Shown in pieces: positions 16,241 to 41,079 of a stretch of DNA of 64,000 nucleotides. The stretch lies in assembly GCF_022134585.1 (NCBI RefSeq), contig NZ_JAKNCT010000007.1, forward strand, positions 1-64,000. The letters are read 5' to 3'. Source of the DNA: Mesosutterella porci (lineage in GTDB: Bacteria; Pseudomonadota; Gammaproteobacteria; Burkholderiales; Burkholderiaceae_F). Numbering within the stretch: the stretch's first letter is position 1; each line of letters begins with the position of its first letter. The position numbers were made by a program, and so were the translations under genes. Under the pieces are notes generated by a model. That model was not told the DNA's origin. It worked only from the letters and a program-made list of their open reading frames with translations, and ran no database searches.

Positions 16241-19200
16241 TCAGTGGATGAGGCCAGCTTGCAGCACTTTGCGGTACTCAAGGGGGAATATCTTGACGAA
16301 CCTCGCCCTAGAGACCTGCCAGTTGTCCAGAAGCTCCTTGGCCCTTGCGCTACCCGTATATCTGTAGTGGCTGGCGATCAGCTCGTGGAGAAGCTCCTCG
16401 TCCGTGCGGCCCTGGTGCCACAGGGCGCGGCTTTCATTTCTCTCCTGCTCGGCCGAGGAGGGCACGCGCTCGAGCATGACCGAGGCCGAATTGCAGCGTC
16501 TTTCGAAATCCCCCTTGTCGTCGTAGACGTATGCGATTCCTCCGCTCATACCCGCAGCGAAATTCCTACCCGTTTCCCCGAGCACAACTACCGTCCCGCC
16601 GGTCATGTACTCGCAGCCGTGGTCCCCGCAGCCCTCGACCACCGCCGAGGCACCGGAAAGCCTGACGGCAAAACGCTCGCCAACTACGCCGTTGAAGTAC
16701 GCTTCGCCGGAGGTTGCGCCATAAAGCGTCGTGTTACCCGCAATGACGTTTTCCGCGCCGCGGCCGTGAAATTCGTCTGTACACTCCACGATGATTCTTC
16801 CGCCGCACAGTCCCTTACCCACGTAGTCGTTGGCCTCGCCCTTCAGATCGAGAGTAATGCCGGGAACAAGGAAAGCCCCCAGGCTCTGTCCCGCGCTGCC
16901 GTGCAGTTCAACATGGATAGTGTCATCGGGCAGTCCCTCCTTCCCGTACCTGAGGGCGACCTGGCTTGACAGCAGGGTGCCGCAGGTGCGGTTGACATTG
17001 TGGACATCGAGGGACATGCGCACCTTCTCGCCTTTTTCCAAGGCCGGCTTCGCAAGTCGTATCAGCTCCCAGTCGAGGCTCTTCTCCAGCCCGTGGTCCT
17101 GGACGGTGCTGTTGCGCCGCTCCTCAGGGCTGGAAACCTCAGGCTCATAGAGCACTCTCGAGCAGTCTATCTTCGAGGCCTTGCCACCCGCATCTGCGCG
17201 CTGCACTAGGCAGTCTGCGCGTCCGATCATATCGTCGAAACGGCGGAAGCCGAGCGAGGCCATCAGCTCACGCACCTCTTCGGCCACAAAGTGGAAATAA
17301 TTCACCAGATGCTCGGGCTTGCCGTGAAACAGCGCGCGCAATTCCGGATCCTGAGTCGCTATGCCGGCCGGGCAGGTGTTCAGATGGCATTTGCGCATCA
17401 TCATGCAGCCCAGAACCACCAGTGGGGCCGTGGCAAACCCGAATTCATCGGCGCCGAGCAGCGCTCCTATAACAACATCGCGGCCAGTCTTGATCTGCCC
17501 GTCAACCTGAATGCGAACGCGGCTGCGCAGGCGATTCACCACCAACGTCTGCTGCGTCTCGGACAGGCCGATCTCCCAGGGAGTCCCGGCGTGCTTGACT
17601 GAAGACAAGGGGCTGGCGCCTGTGCCTCCGTCATGTCCGGAAATCACGATATGGTCCGCTTTGGCCTTGGCTACACCGGCGGCGATGGTCCCCACGCCAG
17701 ATTCGCTGACCAGCTTCACGGAGATGGAGGCCTTCGGATTGGCGTTCTTCAGGTCGTGGATAAGCTGGGCCAGATCCTCGATGGAGTAAATGTCATGGTG
17801 TGGAGGCGGCGAAATAAGGCCGACGCCAGGCACCGAGTAGCGTAGCTTTGCAATATAGGGGCTCACTTTTTTGCCGGGGAGATGTCCGCCTTCGCCCGGC
17901 TTGGCCCCCTGGGCCATCTTGATCTGGATCTGGTCTGCTGACAGCAGATACGTTTCCGTCACGCCGAACCGGGCCGAAGCCACCTGCTTGATCCGGGAGC
18001 ACAGGGAGTCTCCCTTTTTCAGATCAAGCCGCCCGGCAACGACGTCCTTGCCCAGGATGTCGGCCAGCGTCATGCCATCTTCGATGCCAGAGCTGCCCGT
18101 ACGCAGTTCCCTCTCGTAGCGCTTTTCATCCTCGCCGCCTTCGCCTGTGTTGCTTTTCCCGCCGATGCGGTTCATGGCAACGGCAAGAGCCGCGTGCGCC
18201 TCCGCGGAGATAGAGCCCAGCGACATGGCCCCGGTTGCGAAGCGCTTGACGATTTCATCCGCGCTTTCCACCTCCGAGAGCGGCACCGCCGCCTCCGGGT
18301 TCAGCTTAAAGTCAAAAAGCCCGCGAATCGTCATGTGCCTTTTGCTCTGATCGTTGATGATCTGGGCGTATTCACGGTATCGGCCGTAATCGTTGAAGCG
18401 GGCGGCTCTCTGCAGGGCGCCGATGGCCTGGGGCGTCCACATGTGCTCCTCGCCCCTCGGCCTCCAGGCGTACTCTCCCCCGTCATCGAGCTGGAGGCTC
18501 ATCGAAGGCGCCCGATGGAACGCCTCGTGATGCATGTTTACGGCCTCCTGCATGACATCGAAAAGGCCCAGGCCGCCGATCGAGGAGCGGGTTCCCTTGA
18601 AATACCGGTCCATCAGCTCCTGGGACAGCCCGATCGCCTCAAAGATCTGCGCGCCTCGATAACTCATGTAAGTGGAGATGCCCATTTTGGCCATGATTTT
18701 CGTCAGTCCCTGGTCAAGGGCGTAAATGTAGTTCTCCACCGCTTTTTCACTGGTCAGGCCACCATGCGCAGAGCCGTCTCCGTAATAGTCACGGAGCGTT
18801 TCAATGGCCAGGTACGGATGAACGGCTTCGGCCCCGAAACCGGCCAGGAGAGCGAAATGGTGCGTTTCTCTGGCGCTTCCGGTTTCGACCACAATGCCCG
18901 TCTGAGTACGCAGTCCCGCCTTGATCAGGTGCTGGTGCAACGCGCTGGTGGCCAGCAGTGCCGGCACCGCCACCATCTTCTCATCAACGCCGCGGTCCGA
19001 GACGATGAGAATGTTGAAGCCGCTGCGGACGGCGTCCACGGCCTTCGCGCACAAACTGGCAAGATGGGCCTCCACCCCGGCCGCGCCCCACTCCACCGGA
19101 TAGCACAGCGACAGGCGGCAGGAACGGAACTTTCCGGCCGTGTATCTGGAAATTTGATTGATCTTCTCCATCTCACCGTCGTTGAGAATCGGCTGGTTCA

Positions 19201-20917
19201 CCACCAAGCGACGCGGCGGATTCACGTTATTAATATCGAGAAGATCGGGCTTAGGGCCGATGAAGCTGATCAGGGAAGTCACCATCTCTTCCCGAATCGG
19301 GTCGATCGGCGGATTGGTCACCTGAGCGAAAAGCTGCTTGAAGTACTGGTAAAAGGACTGGCTTCGCGATGAAAGCACCGGCAGTGAAGTATCGTCGCCC
19401 ATCGATCCCAGGGGCTCCTTTCGCTCCTCGGCCATGGGACACATCAGGACCTTCAGGTCTTCGGCAGTGTAGCCGAACGCCTGCTGCTCGCGGACAAGGG
19501 GAATCTTGCGCAGGTGCGGCAGCTTTTTCGGCTCCTCAATGGCCGACAGCTTAATGTTGATTTTCTGGGTCCACTCCTCATAGGGATGCGCGCCCGCGAG
19601 CTGTTTTTTGACTTCTTCGTCGCTGATGATCCTTCCGAGCCCAGTGTCAATCAGGAGCATCTTGCCCGGGTGCAACTTCTGCTTTCTCCGAATCCTTGAG
19701 TCCGGCACAGGGATGACTCCCGCCTCGGAGGCGAGGATGACGTAGTCGTCGTCGGTCTCCACGTAACGGGCCGGCCTCAGGCCATTGCGGTCGAGAGTCG
19801 CGCCAATTCTCACTCCGTCGGTGAAGGCGATGACGGCCGGTCCGTCCCAGGGCTCCATGATGGCGGCGTTGTACTCGTAGAGGGCCCGTTTTTCGGGCTC
19901 CATGTCCTTTTCCGCTCTTTCCCAAGCCTCTGGGATCAGCATCATCACGGCGTGCGGCAGTGAGTAGCCGCACATCACCAGCAGCTCCAGCGCGTTGTCG
20001 AGGCAGGCCGTGTCGCTCTGTCCCTCATAGATCAGCGGCGAGAGTTTTTTCAAGTCCTCGTCCGAGAGAACAGCGCTCTTCATCCCTTCGCGGGCCCTGA
20101 TCCAGTTGAAGTTGCCTTTGACCGTGTTGATTTCGCCGTTGTGAGCGATGTAACGGTAGGGATGGGCGAGCTCCCAGCTCGGGAAAGTGTTGGTCGAAAA
20201 CCTCTGGTGAACCAGCGCGATGGCGCTCTTGCATAGAGGATTGGCGAGATCCCGGTAGTAAACCCTCACCTGATCGGCCAGCAACAGCCCCTTGTAAACC
20301 ACGGTTCTAGTGCTCATGGACGGCACAAAATACTCGTGCCCGTGCGTAAGCTTGAGCGCCTGGATTTTGTGGCTCGCGCTCTTGCGGATGACATAAAGGC
20401 GCCGCTCGAGAGCCTCCTGCACCATCACGTCCGGGCCTCGGCCGATGAAAATCTGACGGATGACAGGCTCGCTCGCTTTCACCGTCGGGGAGGTCGGCAT
20501 CTCGTGGTCGACCGGCACCTCGCGCCACCCAATGACCACCTGGCCCTCGGCCCGCACGGCCCGCTCAAGCTCTTCTTCGCAGGCGCGGCGGCTGGCCGGC
20601 TCCCTGGGCAGGAAAATCATGCCGACCCCGTACTCTCCCGGCGGGGGCAGAGTGATGCCCAGCTGTCCGAACTCCGCCCTGAAAAGTTCATCGGGGATCT
20701 GAATCATGATGCCGGCGCCGTCCCCGCACAGGGGGTCGGCCCCGACGGCCCCGCGGTGATCCAGGTTGTGCAGGATCTTCAACCCCTGTTCGATCGTGCG
20801 GTGCGTCGCAACTCCCTTGATGCTTGCGACAAAGCCCACGCCGCAGGAGTCATGTTCATATGCCGGGGAATAAAGCCCCTTTTCTGCAGCCTCGCGGGCC
20901 GCCTCTGCCTTTTTCAT
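16241..20917 (-). CDS. gltB: glutamate synthase (NADPH) large subunit
   Basis: 1558 aa; makes two glutamates from glutamine and 2-oxoglutarate. Order of parts: a short propeptide ending before Cys25 (DSCGVGF), which becomes the N-terminal nucleophile of the class II amidotransferase domain; a central domain; the FMN-binding synthase domain with the 3Fe-4S cysteines in [15 protein letters not shown]; and a C-terminal beta-helix ([10 protein letters not shown]). GGGAG precedes the start. The 183-nt upstream spacer holds a 12-bp inverted repeat. Confidence 0.98.
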
Positions 20918-21017: not shown

Positions 21018-21078
21018 TGATATGTCCCTAATTTCCAATAAATGCGATGTAGCTTGCTCTATAATAAGGGACATATCA
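21018..21078. repeat. 12-bp inverted repeat between gltB and the RAYT-like gene
   Basis: TGATATGTCCCT (21018-21029) and AGGGACATATCA (21067-21078) are perfect inverted copies 37 nt apart. They lie 23 nt past the stop of the RAYT-like gene and about 100 nt upstream of gltB. They could form a hairpin, be a binding site for a regulator of gltBD, or be an end structure used by the transposase-like protein. None of these is proven. Confidence 0.7.
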
Positions 21079-21913: not shown

Positions 21914-21989
21914 TGGTGCCCGTTGTCTGACTCGAACAGACGACCTTTCGCTTACAAGGCGAGTGCACTACCAACTGTGCTAAACGGGC
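21914..21989 (-). tRNA. tRNA-Thr (anticodon TGT)
   Basis: A 76-nt cloverleaf on the minus strand. Acceptor GCCCGTT pairs with AACGGGC; the anticodon loop CTTGTAA gives TGT (reads ACA/ACG); the T-arm contains GTTCGAGTC; CCA is encoded. It lies 20 nt after sspB, leaving little room for its own promoter, so it is probably processed from the sspAB transcript. Confidence 0.97.
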
Positions 21990-38766: not shown

Positions 38767-39273
38767 TCAAGCCTCCGGGCCCTGCTCGCAGGCCGGCAGG
38801 CCCAGCTCCCTCGGGATCCACTTGACAGGTCTGGAGATGCCCAGTTCTTTTAGCCGGGGGTCATCGGGTGCAACCACATCGAAGGCATTCAGCAGGCTTT
38901 CGGGAACGGTGCATACTTTTTTTGTAACAAAGTCAATATGGGCCCACTCCGTTGCCGCGAGCGTGACCAGCTTGCCGTGGCGGACGAATGCATACCTTCT
39001 GAGTGACACAGGTCCCGCAACAGCCGAGATCCAGGTGTACAGGGCCAGCTCATCGCCCAGCAGCGCCGGCCTCAGGTACTCAATCCAGTGCTCCCGGGCC
39101 ACCCAGACGTGCTTCTCGCGCAGATAGCGCTCCTGGGGCCAGCCCAGAGCCGCGGAGTGCTCTATGGCGAGGTCCTCCATCCAGCGCAGGTACTCTTTGT
39201 TGTTGACATGCCCCAGCACGTCAATCGATGCCTCGGTCACTTTCAATGTCTTGGAAAAAATGCTGCTGCACAT
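38767..39273 (-). CDS. acyl-CoA thioesterase, hotdog fold (YbgC/FadM type)
   Basis: 168 aa. The 4HBT signature is DVLGHVNNKEYLRWMED (candidate catalytic Asp18), followed by the hotdog strands HVWVAREHWIEYLRP. The substrate cannot be told from sequence. It follows the RAYT-like gene by 17 nt with AGGAACC upstream, so it belongs to the aroK-aroB unit. Confidence 0.88.
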   Translation of the reverse strand: MCSSIFSKTLKVTEASIDVLGHVNNKEYLRWMEDLAIEHSAALGWPQERYLREKHVWVAREHWIEYLRPALLGDELALYTWISAVAGPVSLRRYAFVRHGKLVTLAATEWAHIDFVTKKVCTVPESLLNAFDVVAPDDPRLKELGISRPVKWIPRELGLPACEQGPEA

Positions 39274-39290: not shown

Positions 39291-39980
39291 TCATTGCTTC
39301 TTGCGGCGGGGACGTCCCTGCCGCCTCGCGGGACGGCGCCTGCCGTCCTCCACCGGGAGGCTTCGCACAAACGGCTCCTCTCCGGCCGGCCAGCCGCGCC
39401 TGGCCTGCTTCTCCAGATACCTTCCGAACCACTCCCTCTGAGGCGTGGCGCACATCTGCCTGTAGCGCCGGGCGCGCTCCTGGGGCGAGTCGCCCAGAGC
39501 CCACAGCACGGGCGAGTCGCTCAGAAATTCGTCTACCCGTGTGCCCGTATGGTGGGCATAGCTCGACCAGACATACTGCCCGGGCTGCAGAACAAAGCCG
39601 AGCCTGACGGGAAGCTCCTCCAGATACCTGCAGGCCTCAAGCTCCCAGGCCGGGTCCAGAACGCAGGACCTGAAGCGCCCGCCCCAGATGGTGCCCGAAT
39701 GCAGGTAACGCGCGTTAAACCATCGGACATAGCGCCTGGAAAGCTCCTGCATGAAATGACTCAGCGCCAAAGAGGTCTCCGGACAGAGCAGCAGGTGCGC
39801 CCCTGCGGGCAGAAGGACGTAGCCGCGCACGGCGACGCCGGAACTTTCCGAACACCGGCGGACAGATTCCAAATAATACAGGTAATCCTCGTCGCTCCTG
39901 AAGACATCGAGCCTGCCCGCCCCCTTCTGAACCACCAGGTGGGGCAGGCCGGCAATTGTGCAGCGCGTCAGCCTTGCCAT
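39291..39980 (-). CDS. RAYT-like (Y1 transposase-like) protein, degenerate HUH motif
   Basis: 229 aa from ATG 39980 (GGGGAG upstream; starts MARLTRCTIAGLPHL). It is paralogous to the gene at 21101: same length, same start, LPAGAHLLL in place of MPNHVHLL (first His is Gly60, His62 kept), RRYVRWFNARYLHSGTIWGG with candidate Tyr84, and WSS. The C terminus ends in RRQGRPRRKKQ, again AT-hook-like. It begins 13 nt after aroB and appears co-transcribed with it. Nuclease activity is unlikely. Confidence 0.75.
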   Translation of the reverse strand: MARLTRCTIAGLPHLVVQKGAGRLDVFRSDEDYLYYLESVRRCSESSGVAVRGYVLLPAGAHLLLCPETSLALSHFMQELSRRYVRWFNARYLHSGTIWGGRFRSCVLDPAWELEACRYLEELPVRLGFVLQPGQYVWSSYAHHTGTRVDEFLSDSPVLWALGDSPQERARRYRQMCATPQREWFGRYLEKQARRGWPAGEEPFVRSLPVEDGRRRPARRQGRPRRKKQ

Positions 39981-39993
39981 GAATCTCCCCGCC

Positions 39994-41079
39994 CTATGGC
40001 CGGTAGCCGCCCCAGAGCAGCGTCTGCCGCAGCAGTTCCATGGGCACTTCCTCGACAGTCGTGCGCCCGATGCCGTGAAGGACGACAAACCGGATGTGCC
40101 CGCCTGCGCTCTTCTTGTCTCCTTTCATGCAGGCAATGGCTGCCTCAAGTGGCAGTCCCTCGATCCTTACCGGAAGTCCCGCTGAGCGCACGGCCTCCGT
40201 CACTCTCCCGAGTTCTTCCTGCGTAAGATACCCGAGCCGCCTGGACAGATCGGCAGCGAGCACGAGTCCGCAGCCGACGGCCTCACCGTGCAGCCACGTG
40301 CCGAACCCGGCCAGCTTCTCGATGGCGTGGCCGAAAGTGTGCCCAAGGTTGAGCGTGGCTCGTATTCCCGACTCCTTCTCATCGCGCGAGACAATGCCGG
40401 CCTTCAGTTCGCACGACCCGGCGATGACCTTCGCGAGGACCTCGTGGTCGAGCCTGCGGATCGCCGCCATATTCCGGAACACCATGTCGAAATAGGCGGC
40501 GTCGCCCAAAAGCCCGTGCTTGATGATCTCTCCCAGCCCCGCTGAGACCTCGCGCGCGGGCAGTGTCTCCAGCGTCTGCGTATCGGCCACCACGAGCGAG
40601 GGCTGGTGAAAGCAACCGATAAGATTCTTTCCCGCGGGGAGGTTGACTCCGGTCTTTCCTCCTACGGAACTGTCCACCTGAGCGAGCAGCGTCGTCGGGA
40701 ACTGGACGAAGCGGATGCCACGCATCCAAATGGCCGCCGCGAACCCGGCGATGTCTCCGACTACGCCGCCGCCCAGGGCGCATATCACAGAGTGCCGGTC
40801 AGCCCCCGCGGCCGTCAGTCCGTCAAGGACTTTCTGCACCGAGCTGAAATTCTTAAAACGCTCGCCATCCGGAAGGATGACCGAAGAGACCGGGGCGATG
40901 CCCCGGCAGGAGGTGGTCAGCCGCTCCAGATAAAGCGGCTGCACTGTCTCGTTGGTGACTATCACGATCCGGGTGGGGTTGAGCTTTTCCACCCAGGCCC
41001 CGGCCTGCTCAAGAAGCCCCGGTCCCGTCAGAATGGGGTAGCTGCGCCCCCCCAGATTGACCTCTGTTGTCTTAACCAT
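39994..41079 (-). CDS. aroB: 3-dehydroquinate synthase
   Basis: 361 aa, NAD- and metal-dependent; second step of the shikimate pathway. Motifs include LPDGERFKNF, GGGVVGDIAGFAA, PTTLLAQVDSSVGGKTGVN and NLGHTFGHAIE (metal ligands). Overlaps the aroK stop by 8 nt. The shikimate products feed the trp genes at the left end of the window. Confidence 0.97.
   Translation of the reverse strand: MVKTTEVNLGGRSYPILTGPGLLEQAGAWVEKLNPTRIVIVTNETVQPLYLERLTTSCRGIAPVSSVILPDGERFKNFSSVQKVLDGLTAAGADRHSVICALGGGVVGDIAGFAAAIWMRGIRFVQFPTTLLAQVDSSVGGKTGVNLPAGKNLIGCFHQPSLVVADTQTLETLPAREVSAGLGEIIKHGLLGDAAYFDMVFRNMAAIRRLDHEVLAKVIAGSCELKAGIVSRDEKESGIRATLNLGHTFGHAIEKLAGFGTWLHGEAVGCGLVLAADLSRRLGYLTQEELGRVTEAVRSAGLPVRIEGLPLEAAIACMKGDKKSAGGHIRFVVLHGIGRTTVEEVPMELLRQTLLWGGYRP

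Follow-up and report, generated by a model that had tools for sequence, protein, structure and literature searches.

Two catalytically degenerate Y1/RAYT-like genes of Mesosutterella porci, P1 beside aroB and P2 beside gltB, have homologues at the same region across Burkholderiales, where catalytic residues have been lost repeatedly and a pair of sites with the element's terminal-repeat motif stands at the gltB promoter. Sequence comparison leads us to a candidate reading that we hold to be somewhat better than evenly supported: a transposase/repeat pair may have turned into a regulator/operator pair at gltBD, with catalysis then becoming dispensable. For the fuller claim, that this conversion was Burkholderiales-wide with repeated independent catalytic loss, and that a duplication in this genus let P1 gain a role in the aroKB operon, we see about an even chance. 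Both genes lie in the window, the whole 64,000-nucleotide stretch that was analysed. P1 belongs to the aroKB operon by position, with gaps of 13 nt from aroB and 17 nt to the thioesterase gene:

39291–39980, minus strand: P1, catalytically degenerate Y1/RAYT-like gene, 229 aa
39789–39809, minus strand: HUH position of P1, PAGAHLL, first His replaced by Gly60 and His62 kept (alignment and column statistics)
39603–39632, minus strand: tyrosine helix of P1, CRYLEELPVR, Tyr119 kept and metal-ligand Asn replaced by Leu123 (alignment; ligand role from PMC6006769)
39294–39326, minus strand: basic GRPRR tail of P1, AT-hook-like (alignment)
39994–41079, minus strand: aroB, directly upstream of P1
41072–41611, minus strand: aroK, start at MGKIIYLVG
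38767–39273, minus strand: thioesterase-like gene directly downstream of P1, followed by mla-like genes

P2 lies upstream of gltB across a gap of 183 nt, and a tRNA-Thr gene (TGT; 21914–21989, minus strand) is found about 130 nt upstream of P2:

21101–21787, minus strand: P2, paralogue upstream of gltB, 228 aa, His1 replaced by Ser, Tyr by Phe and Asn by Leu
16241–20917, minus strand: gltB, proposed target of P2
14739–16226, minus strand: gltD

The two proteins are 31–32% identical (E = 5e-28), so their likeness is not due to chance, and they are the sole Y1/RAYT-like genes in this 2.4 Mb genome. A sequence-only reading had described them as paralogues of one length, start, Tyr region and tail, set beside aroB and gltB. 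The neighbours are as it said, the lengths are nearly equal, and the basic GRPRR tail is common to both (GRPRRKKQ in P1, GRPRRPRR in P2), as is the loss of the first HUH His to different residues, Gly in P1 and Ser in P2 (PDSVHLL). The shared start applies to P1 (MARLTR) but not to P2, which begins MARMAR. The Tyr regions agree in part: the metal-ligand Asn is lost in both, whereas Tyr119 is kept in P1 (RYLEELP) and is Phe in P2 (RFVDALA). Among 96 aligned homologues, Gly222 and Arg223 of the tail are invariant and Pro224 is nearly so; the P1 tail has the GRP core among basic residues that characterizes AT-hooks, which would predict minor-groove binding. Matches to the Pfam families Y1_Tnp/REP_Tyr_transpos are weak (21.7 bits for P1, 28.0 bits for P2), and both proteins stay below the cut-off of 80 for NCBIfam NF047646 (32.3 and 35.7 bits). 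AF2 models (pLDDT 91.8 for P1, 90.2 for P2) nevertheless have the Y1 HUH fold of class 2 Y1 proteins (RAYT/TIRYT). The best PDB match of the P1 model in Foldseek is 4er8, the E. coli RAYT (E = 1e-7; TM 0.76 by target length), and all 28 of its PDB matches at E ≤ 1e-3 are described as Y1-type transposases. Neither protein has the intact HUH motif or the catalytic Tyr with Y---NP of that class. Inverted repeats on both sides of the gene are also lacking, P1 having no site and P2 having both arms on its gltB side, and an active REPtron at P1 is ruled out, with no room for repeats and no site there.

We found the transposase-like gene upstream of gltB–gltD in family relatives and elsewhere across Burkholderiales, often in the order aroK–aroB–dgt–tnp–gltB–gltD. 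This order, which the sequence-only reading had put forward for some Burkholderiales, is widespread in the order, and the synteny survey that it called for revealed a conserved neighbourhood outside this genome; confinement of the gene to this genome is rejected by the homologues in other genomes. Copies adjoin gltB in Cupriavidus, Ralstonia, Janthinobacterium, Collimonas, Noviherbaspirillum, Paucibacter, Roseateles and Rhodoferax, and no gltB-adjacent homologue outside Burkholderiales was seen among the class-level loci examined. The region is split in this genus: both copies, P1 at aroB and P2 at gltB, occur in the present genome (G000) and in its sister (G044), and three further congeners have the aroB copy only. 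Within the family, gene-bearing genomes nearly always have gltB (G040 is the exception), but many gltB-bearing genomes lack the gene, which is absent from whole genera; in G011 and G028 it is missing from an otherwise similar aroB–gltB region. Two relatives (L263 and L264) have an aroB(–dgt)–gltB–gltD region with neither gene nor sites, L264 retaining a similar promoter-like sequence.

The canonical residues of these enzymes are H.H and Y---NP, with the Asn as third metal ligand (PMC6006769). Core catalytic residues have been lost in 51 of 122 linked proteins compared with none of 45 unlinked ones, raw counts that come from many draft assemblies and uneven sampling and are inflated by relatedness. 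On a tree of the 167 proteins from which the catalytic columns were left out, this core loss takes 18 changes; for the label 'any of four residues lost' the count is likewise 18, at least nine of them forced by supported branches. Six proteins first classed as unlinked were rechecked with longer flanks: five lie in an aroB or gltB neighbourhood, and the sixth (L226), which ends 4.6 kb short of the edge of its contig, was assigned to the linked group on account of its linked congener G253. Three unlinked rows are nested inside the linked clade. Of the 26 columns conserved in intact proteins, the five that have eroded most include all four catalytic ones, with retention of 4% for N123, 8% for H60, 41% for Y119 and 57% for H62; R3, R6, R102, W138, S139, S140 and Y173 are retained at 94–100%. 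The active site is still complete in the majority of linked copies. Dead pairs mostly have dN/dS values of 0.04–0.24, similar to those of intact pairs (the highest, 0.31, belongs to a distant pair), and no frame breaks occur in the linked copies listed. In the comparison of this genome with its sister, dN/dS is 0.041 for P1 against 0.094 for aroB, which places P1 under strong constraint, and 0.153 for P2. These values, together with the intact frame, rule out P1 and P2 as pseudogenes. We conclude that residue loss at this locus is targeted, with fold, reading frame and GRP tail kept. The earlier argument against random decay thus holds on these dN/dS values and on the recurrence of the same loss in many lineages, but the parallel loss is not private to the pair: P1 sits within a clade of 11 members, all of them dead.

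The gap between P2 and gltB contains a 16-nt inverted repeat (TGATATGTCCCTTATT / AATTAGGGACATATCA) with arms 29 nt apart, also present in the sister genome:

21018–21033, plus strand: operator-like arm, TGATATGTCCCTAATT, predicted
21063–21078, minus strand: operator-like arm, inverted, TGATATGTCCCTTATT in the minus-strand reading, predicted

The second arm is the top-scoring site of the window. The exact half-site occurs in this genome at 21018–21078 only, and there is no dispersed cognate repeat family. A motif-like match of 14.8 bits inside the gltB coding region (20013–20032) is weaker in the sister genome and probably due to chance. Order-wide, the motif approximates TCTGWCCCYAATTW, the terminal-repeat motif of the element, and stands in two copies in the gap between the transposase-like gene and gltB. 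Scored with its position weight matrix, 94% of the 140 regions upstream of a gltB next to the gene exceed 16 bits, and none of the 53 regions upstream of a gltB that lacks the linked gene does so (14 from the family, 15 from genomes without a match and 24 from genomes with unlinked copies only). Because the gene-adjacent loci themselves served to build this larger matrix, the fair figure is the held-out one: when a matrix was built from 27 sites at 13 loci of a single family, 97.6% of the 127 loci kept out of its training scored above every control. The family matrix gives 22 bits at P2 and 20–25 bits in the g5 and g18 genomes.

The geometry of the sites is regular. Among about 116 two-site loci, 95 have a direct spacing of 48–50 nt and 16 an inverted spacing of 41–43 nt. 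We scanned for a sigma70-like pattern, TTG-(15–19)-TAnnnT, and in 77 of the 89 cases with a recognizable promoter the site core ends 12–13 nt before TTG; the promoter spacer is 17 nt in 74 cases, and shuffles gave the site–promoter register in about 1%. Linked loci therefore have their sites in fixed register with the promoter across the order, P1 excepted, although no sigma70-type promoter passed the scan in the window's own P2–gltB gap. A function of the sites as an RNA leader is unlikely for a gltB mRNA starting at the inferred promoter, because they lie upstream of the −35 box. In the g5 genomes (G021, G022, G023 and G025) and in G066, gltB and the sites are together at a place away from the gene, which lies at aroB–dgt. 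We conclude that the sites follow gltB rather than the gene. In a Janthinobacterium MAG (L125, 6862–6989), the gene is divergent from gltB and two motifs 48 nt apart are still gltB-oriented. Three genomes of one genus (g15; L025, L026 and L027) have the gene at gltB and no clear site, which possibly reflects co-divergence of protein and site; L027 retains a degraded version of the site, GTGTCACAT.

Catalytically intact homologues that are not linked to the region are often flanked on either side by a single repeat facing outwards. In three genomes that carry them (G132, G205 and G291), 86–123 dispersed TCTGWCCCYAATTW motifs were counted, compared with 0–1 for the reversed control; this population resembles REPs. 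Most linked genomes have 0–5 dispersed motifs. Two genomes, G041 with 23 and G333 with 19, have dispersed motifs alongside catalytically intact gltB-linked copies, and may possibly represent an intermediate stage.

In the mechanism that we propose, P1 and P2 would belong to a lineage of TIR-associated tyrosine transposases (TIRYT/RAYT, class 2 Y1) that became established in the aroKB–dgt–gltBD region of Burkholderiales and is inherited vertically. In an ordinary element, the terminal-repeat motif would flank the gene on both sides and be scattered through the genome; at gltBD it would have become a site pair at a constant position relative to the gltB promoter. The two sites are most likely bound by a dimer of the protein, whose Y1 core would read CTGWCCC and whose basic GRP tail would perhaps read AATTWA. 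Such binding would regulate gltBD, probably by activation, given that the sites are just upstream of the −35 box. Regulation would not need cleavage, and so the metal ligands and the nucleophile could have decayed many times, with the DNA-binding scaffold staying under selection. Solved TnpA-REP relatives bind folded single-stranded hairpins in a strand-specific manner (PMC8266576), and binding of a double-stranded operator would therefore be a new property. In this genome, P2 would be the copy that keeps the gltB operator and P1 the copy at aroB. The operator reading does not cover P1, since the terminal-repeat motif is found neither near P1 nor at aroK, and the three P1-only congeners have no site at gltB. 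P1 also lacks the LGNTPFDRQ stretch that P2 retains in the alignment, and the P1-only congeners have likewise lost the corresponding motif, LGNTPFERQ. Having no recognizable site, P1 has probably either acquired another target or works together with P2.

The hairpin binding of known relatives (PMC8266576) would also fit a protein that still acts on DNA structure, for example on single-stranded hairpins at replication forks, with its place at gltB or aroB merely inherited and gltBD not its target. The full active site in over half of the linked copies and the 19–23 motifs still dispersed in G333 and G041 agree with this, but the promoter register, the co-occurrence of the gene with sites at gltB and the repeated active-site loss at this locus only do not, and we consider it unlikely. 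The sites might instead be leftover terminal repeats of an immobilized element and the gene a slowly decaying passenger between operons. The motif is indeed the terminal repeat of unlinked relatives and matches the type of the published TIR consensus, GGGGWSAS (PMC3733652), and the existence of gltB-bearing genera that live without the gene suits a passenger and counts against a regulator. Such a relic would nevertheless have to account for dN/dS values of 0.04–0.24 in most dead lineages, for unbroken frames in the linked copies listed, for a spacing and a −35 distance fixed across the order and for sites kept after gltB had moved away, which makes it quite improbable. That the Y1-like protein binds the sites is itself a prediction, and another transcription factor could read them while the transposase-like gene merely travels with gltB; the absence of the sites from all 53 gltB promoters without the gene, and their identity with the element's own terminal repeat, leave this very improbable. 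We thus favour conversion into a regulator and operator at gltBD.

Compatible with that conversion is an origin of P1 and P2 from one ancestral locus, duplicated as its aroKB and gltBD halves separated, after which P1 would have diverged, its link to the gltB operator being lost. We regard this history as evenly balanced. The ancestral order is present in relatives, aroB–P1 and P2–gltB each retain part of it, and gltB appears vertically inherited: in the gltB tree, the gene of this genus groups with its own family, so there is no sign of gltB import, and import of gltB and P2 together from a distant lineage is not supported. The phylogeny that was proposed as a check speaks both ways. Free trees set P2 apart from P1 on a long branch, and the LGNTPFDRQ difference likewise counts against a common origin; a clade of P2 with the P1 proteins of the genus is nonetheless not rejected (AU p = 0.34). 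An origin of P1 from the same ancestral locus is therefore plausible.

RAYTs have been termed domesticated transposases, with their exact function described as unknown (PMC8049555). The locus described here offers a natural series at one conserved position, which runs from intact, dispersing copies to dead ones with a single site, with the gltB promoter as candidate target, and thereby makes a host role of RAYTs directly testable. If the proposal is correct, bacteria would here provide an instance in which a transposase became a regulator and its ends the operator. A RAYT or TIRYT acting on gltB was not found in the literature searched, which did not extend to Bertels 2017. P1 and P2 share fold, Y1 core and low copy number with RAYT/TnpA-REP proteins such as E. 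coli TnpAREP (PDB 4er8), but both lack the first HUH His and the ligand Asn, the Tyr being absent from P2 as well; they have an extra C-terminal region with the GRP tail, and are accompanied by a promoter site pair in place of a REPtron and a dispersed REP population. TIRYTs, to which subclass 2.1 of PMC6006769 probably corresponds, are nearer in their repeats: the terminal-repeat motif is of the same GGGGWSAS type, and many of the unlinked homologues have the TIRtron layout of a repeat on each side (PMC3733652). However, HUH and Tyr are kept in all TIRYTs described so far (PMC3733652), whereas gltB-linked copies mostly carry the two sites together on the side facing gltB, in promoter register, and many of them are dead. 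In E. coli, too, the gltB promoter is a point of control, at which Lrp, IHF, Crp and ArgR regulate the gltBDF operon (PMC1784095); these proteins and their sites are unrelated to those of Burkholderiales.
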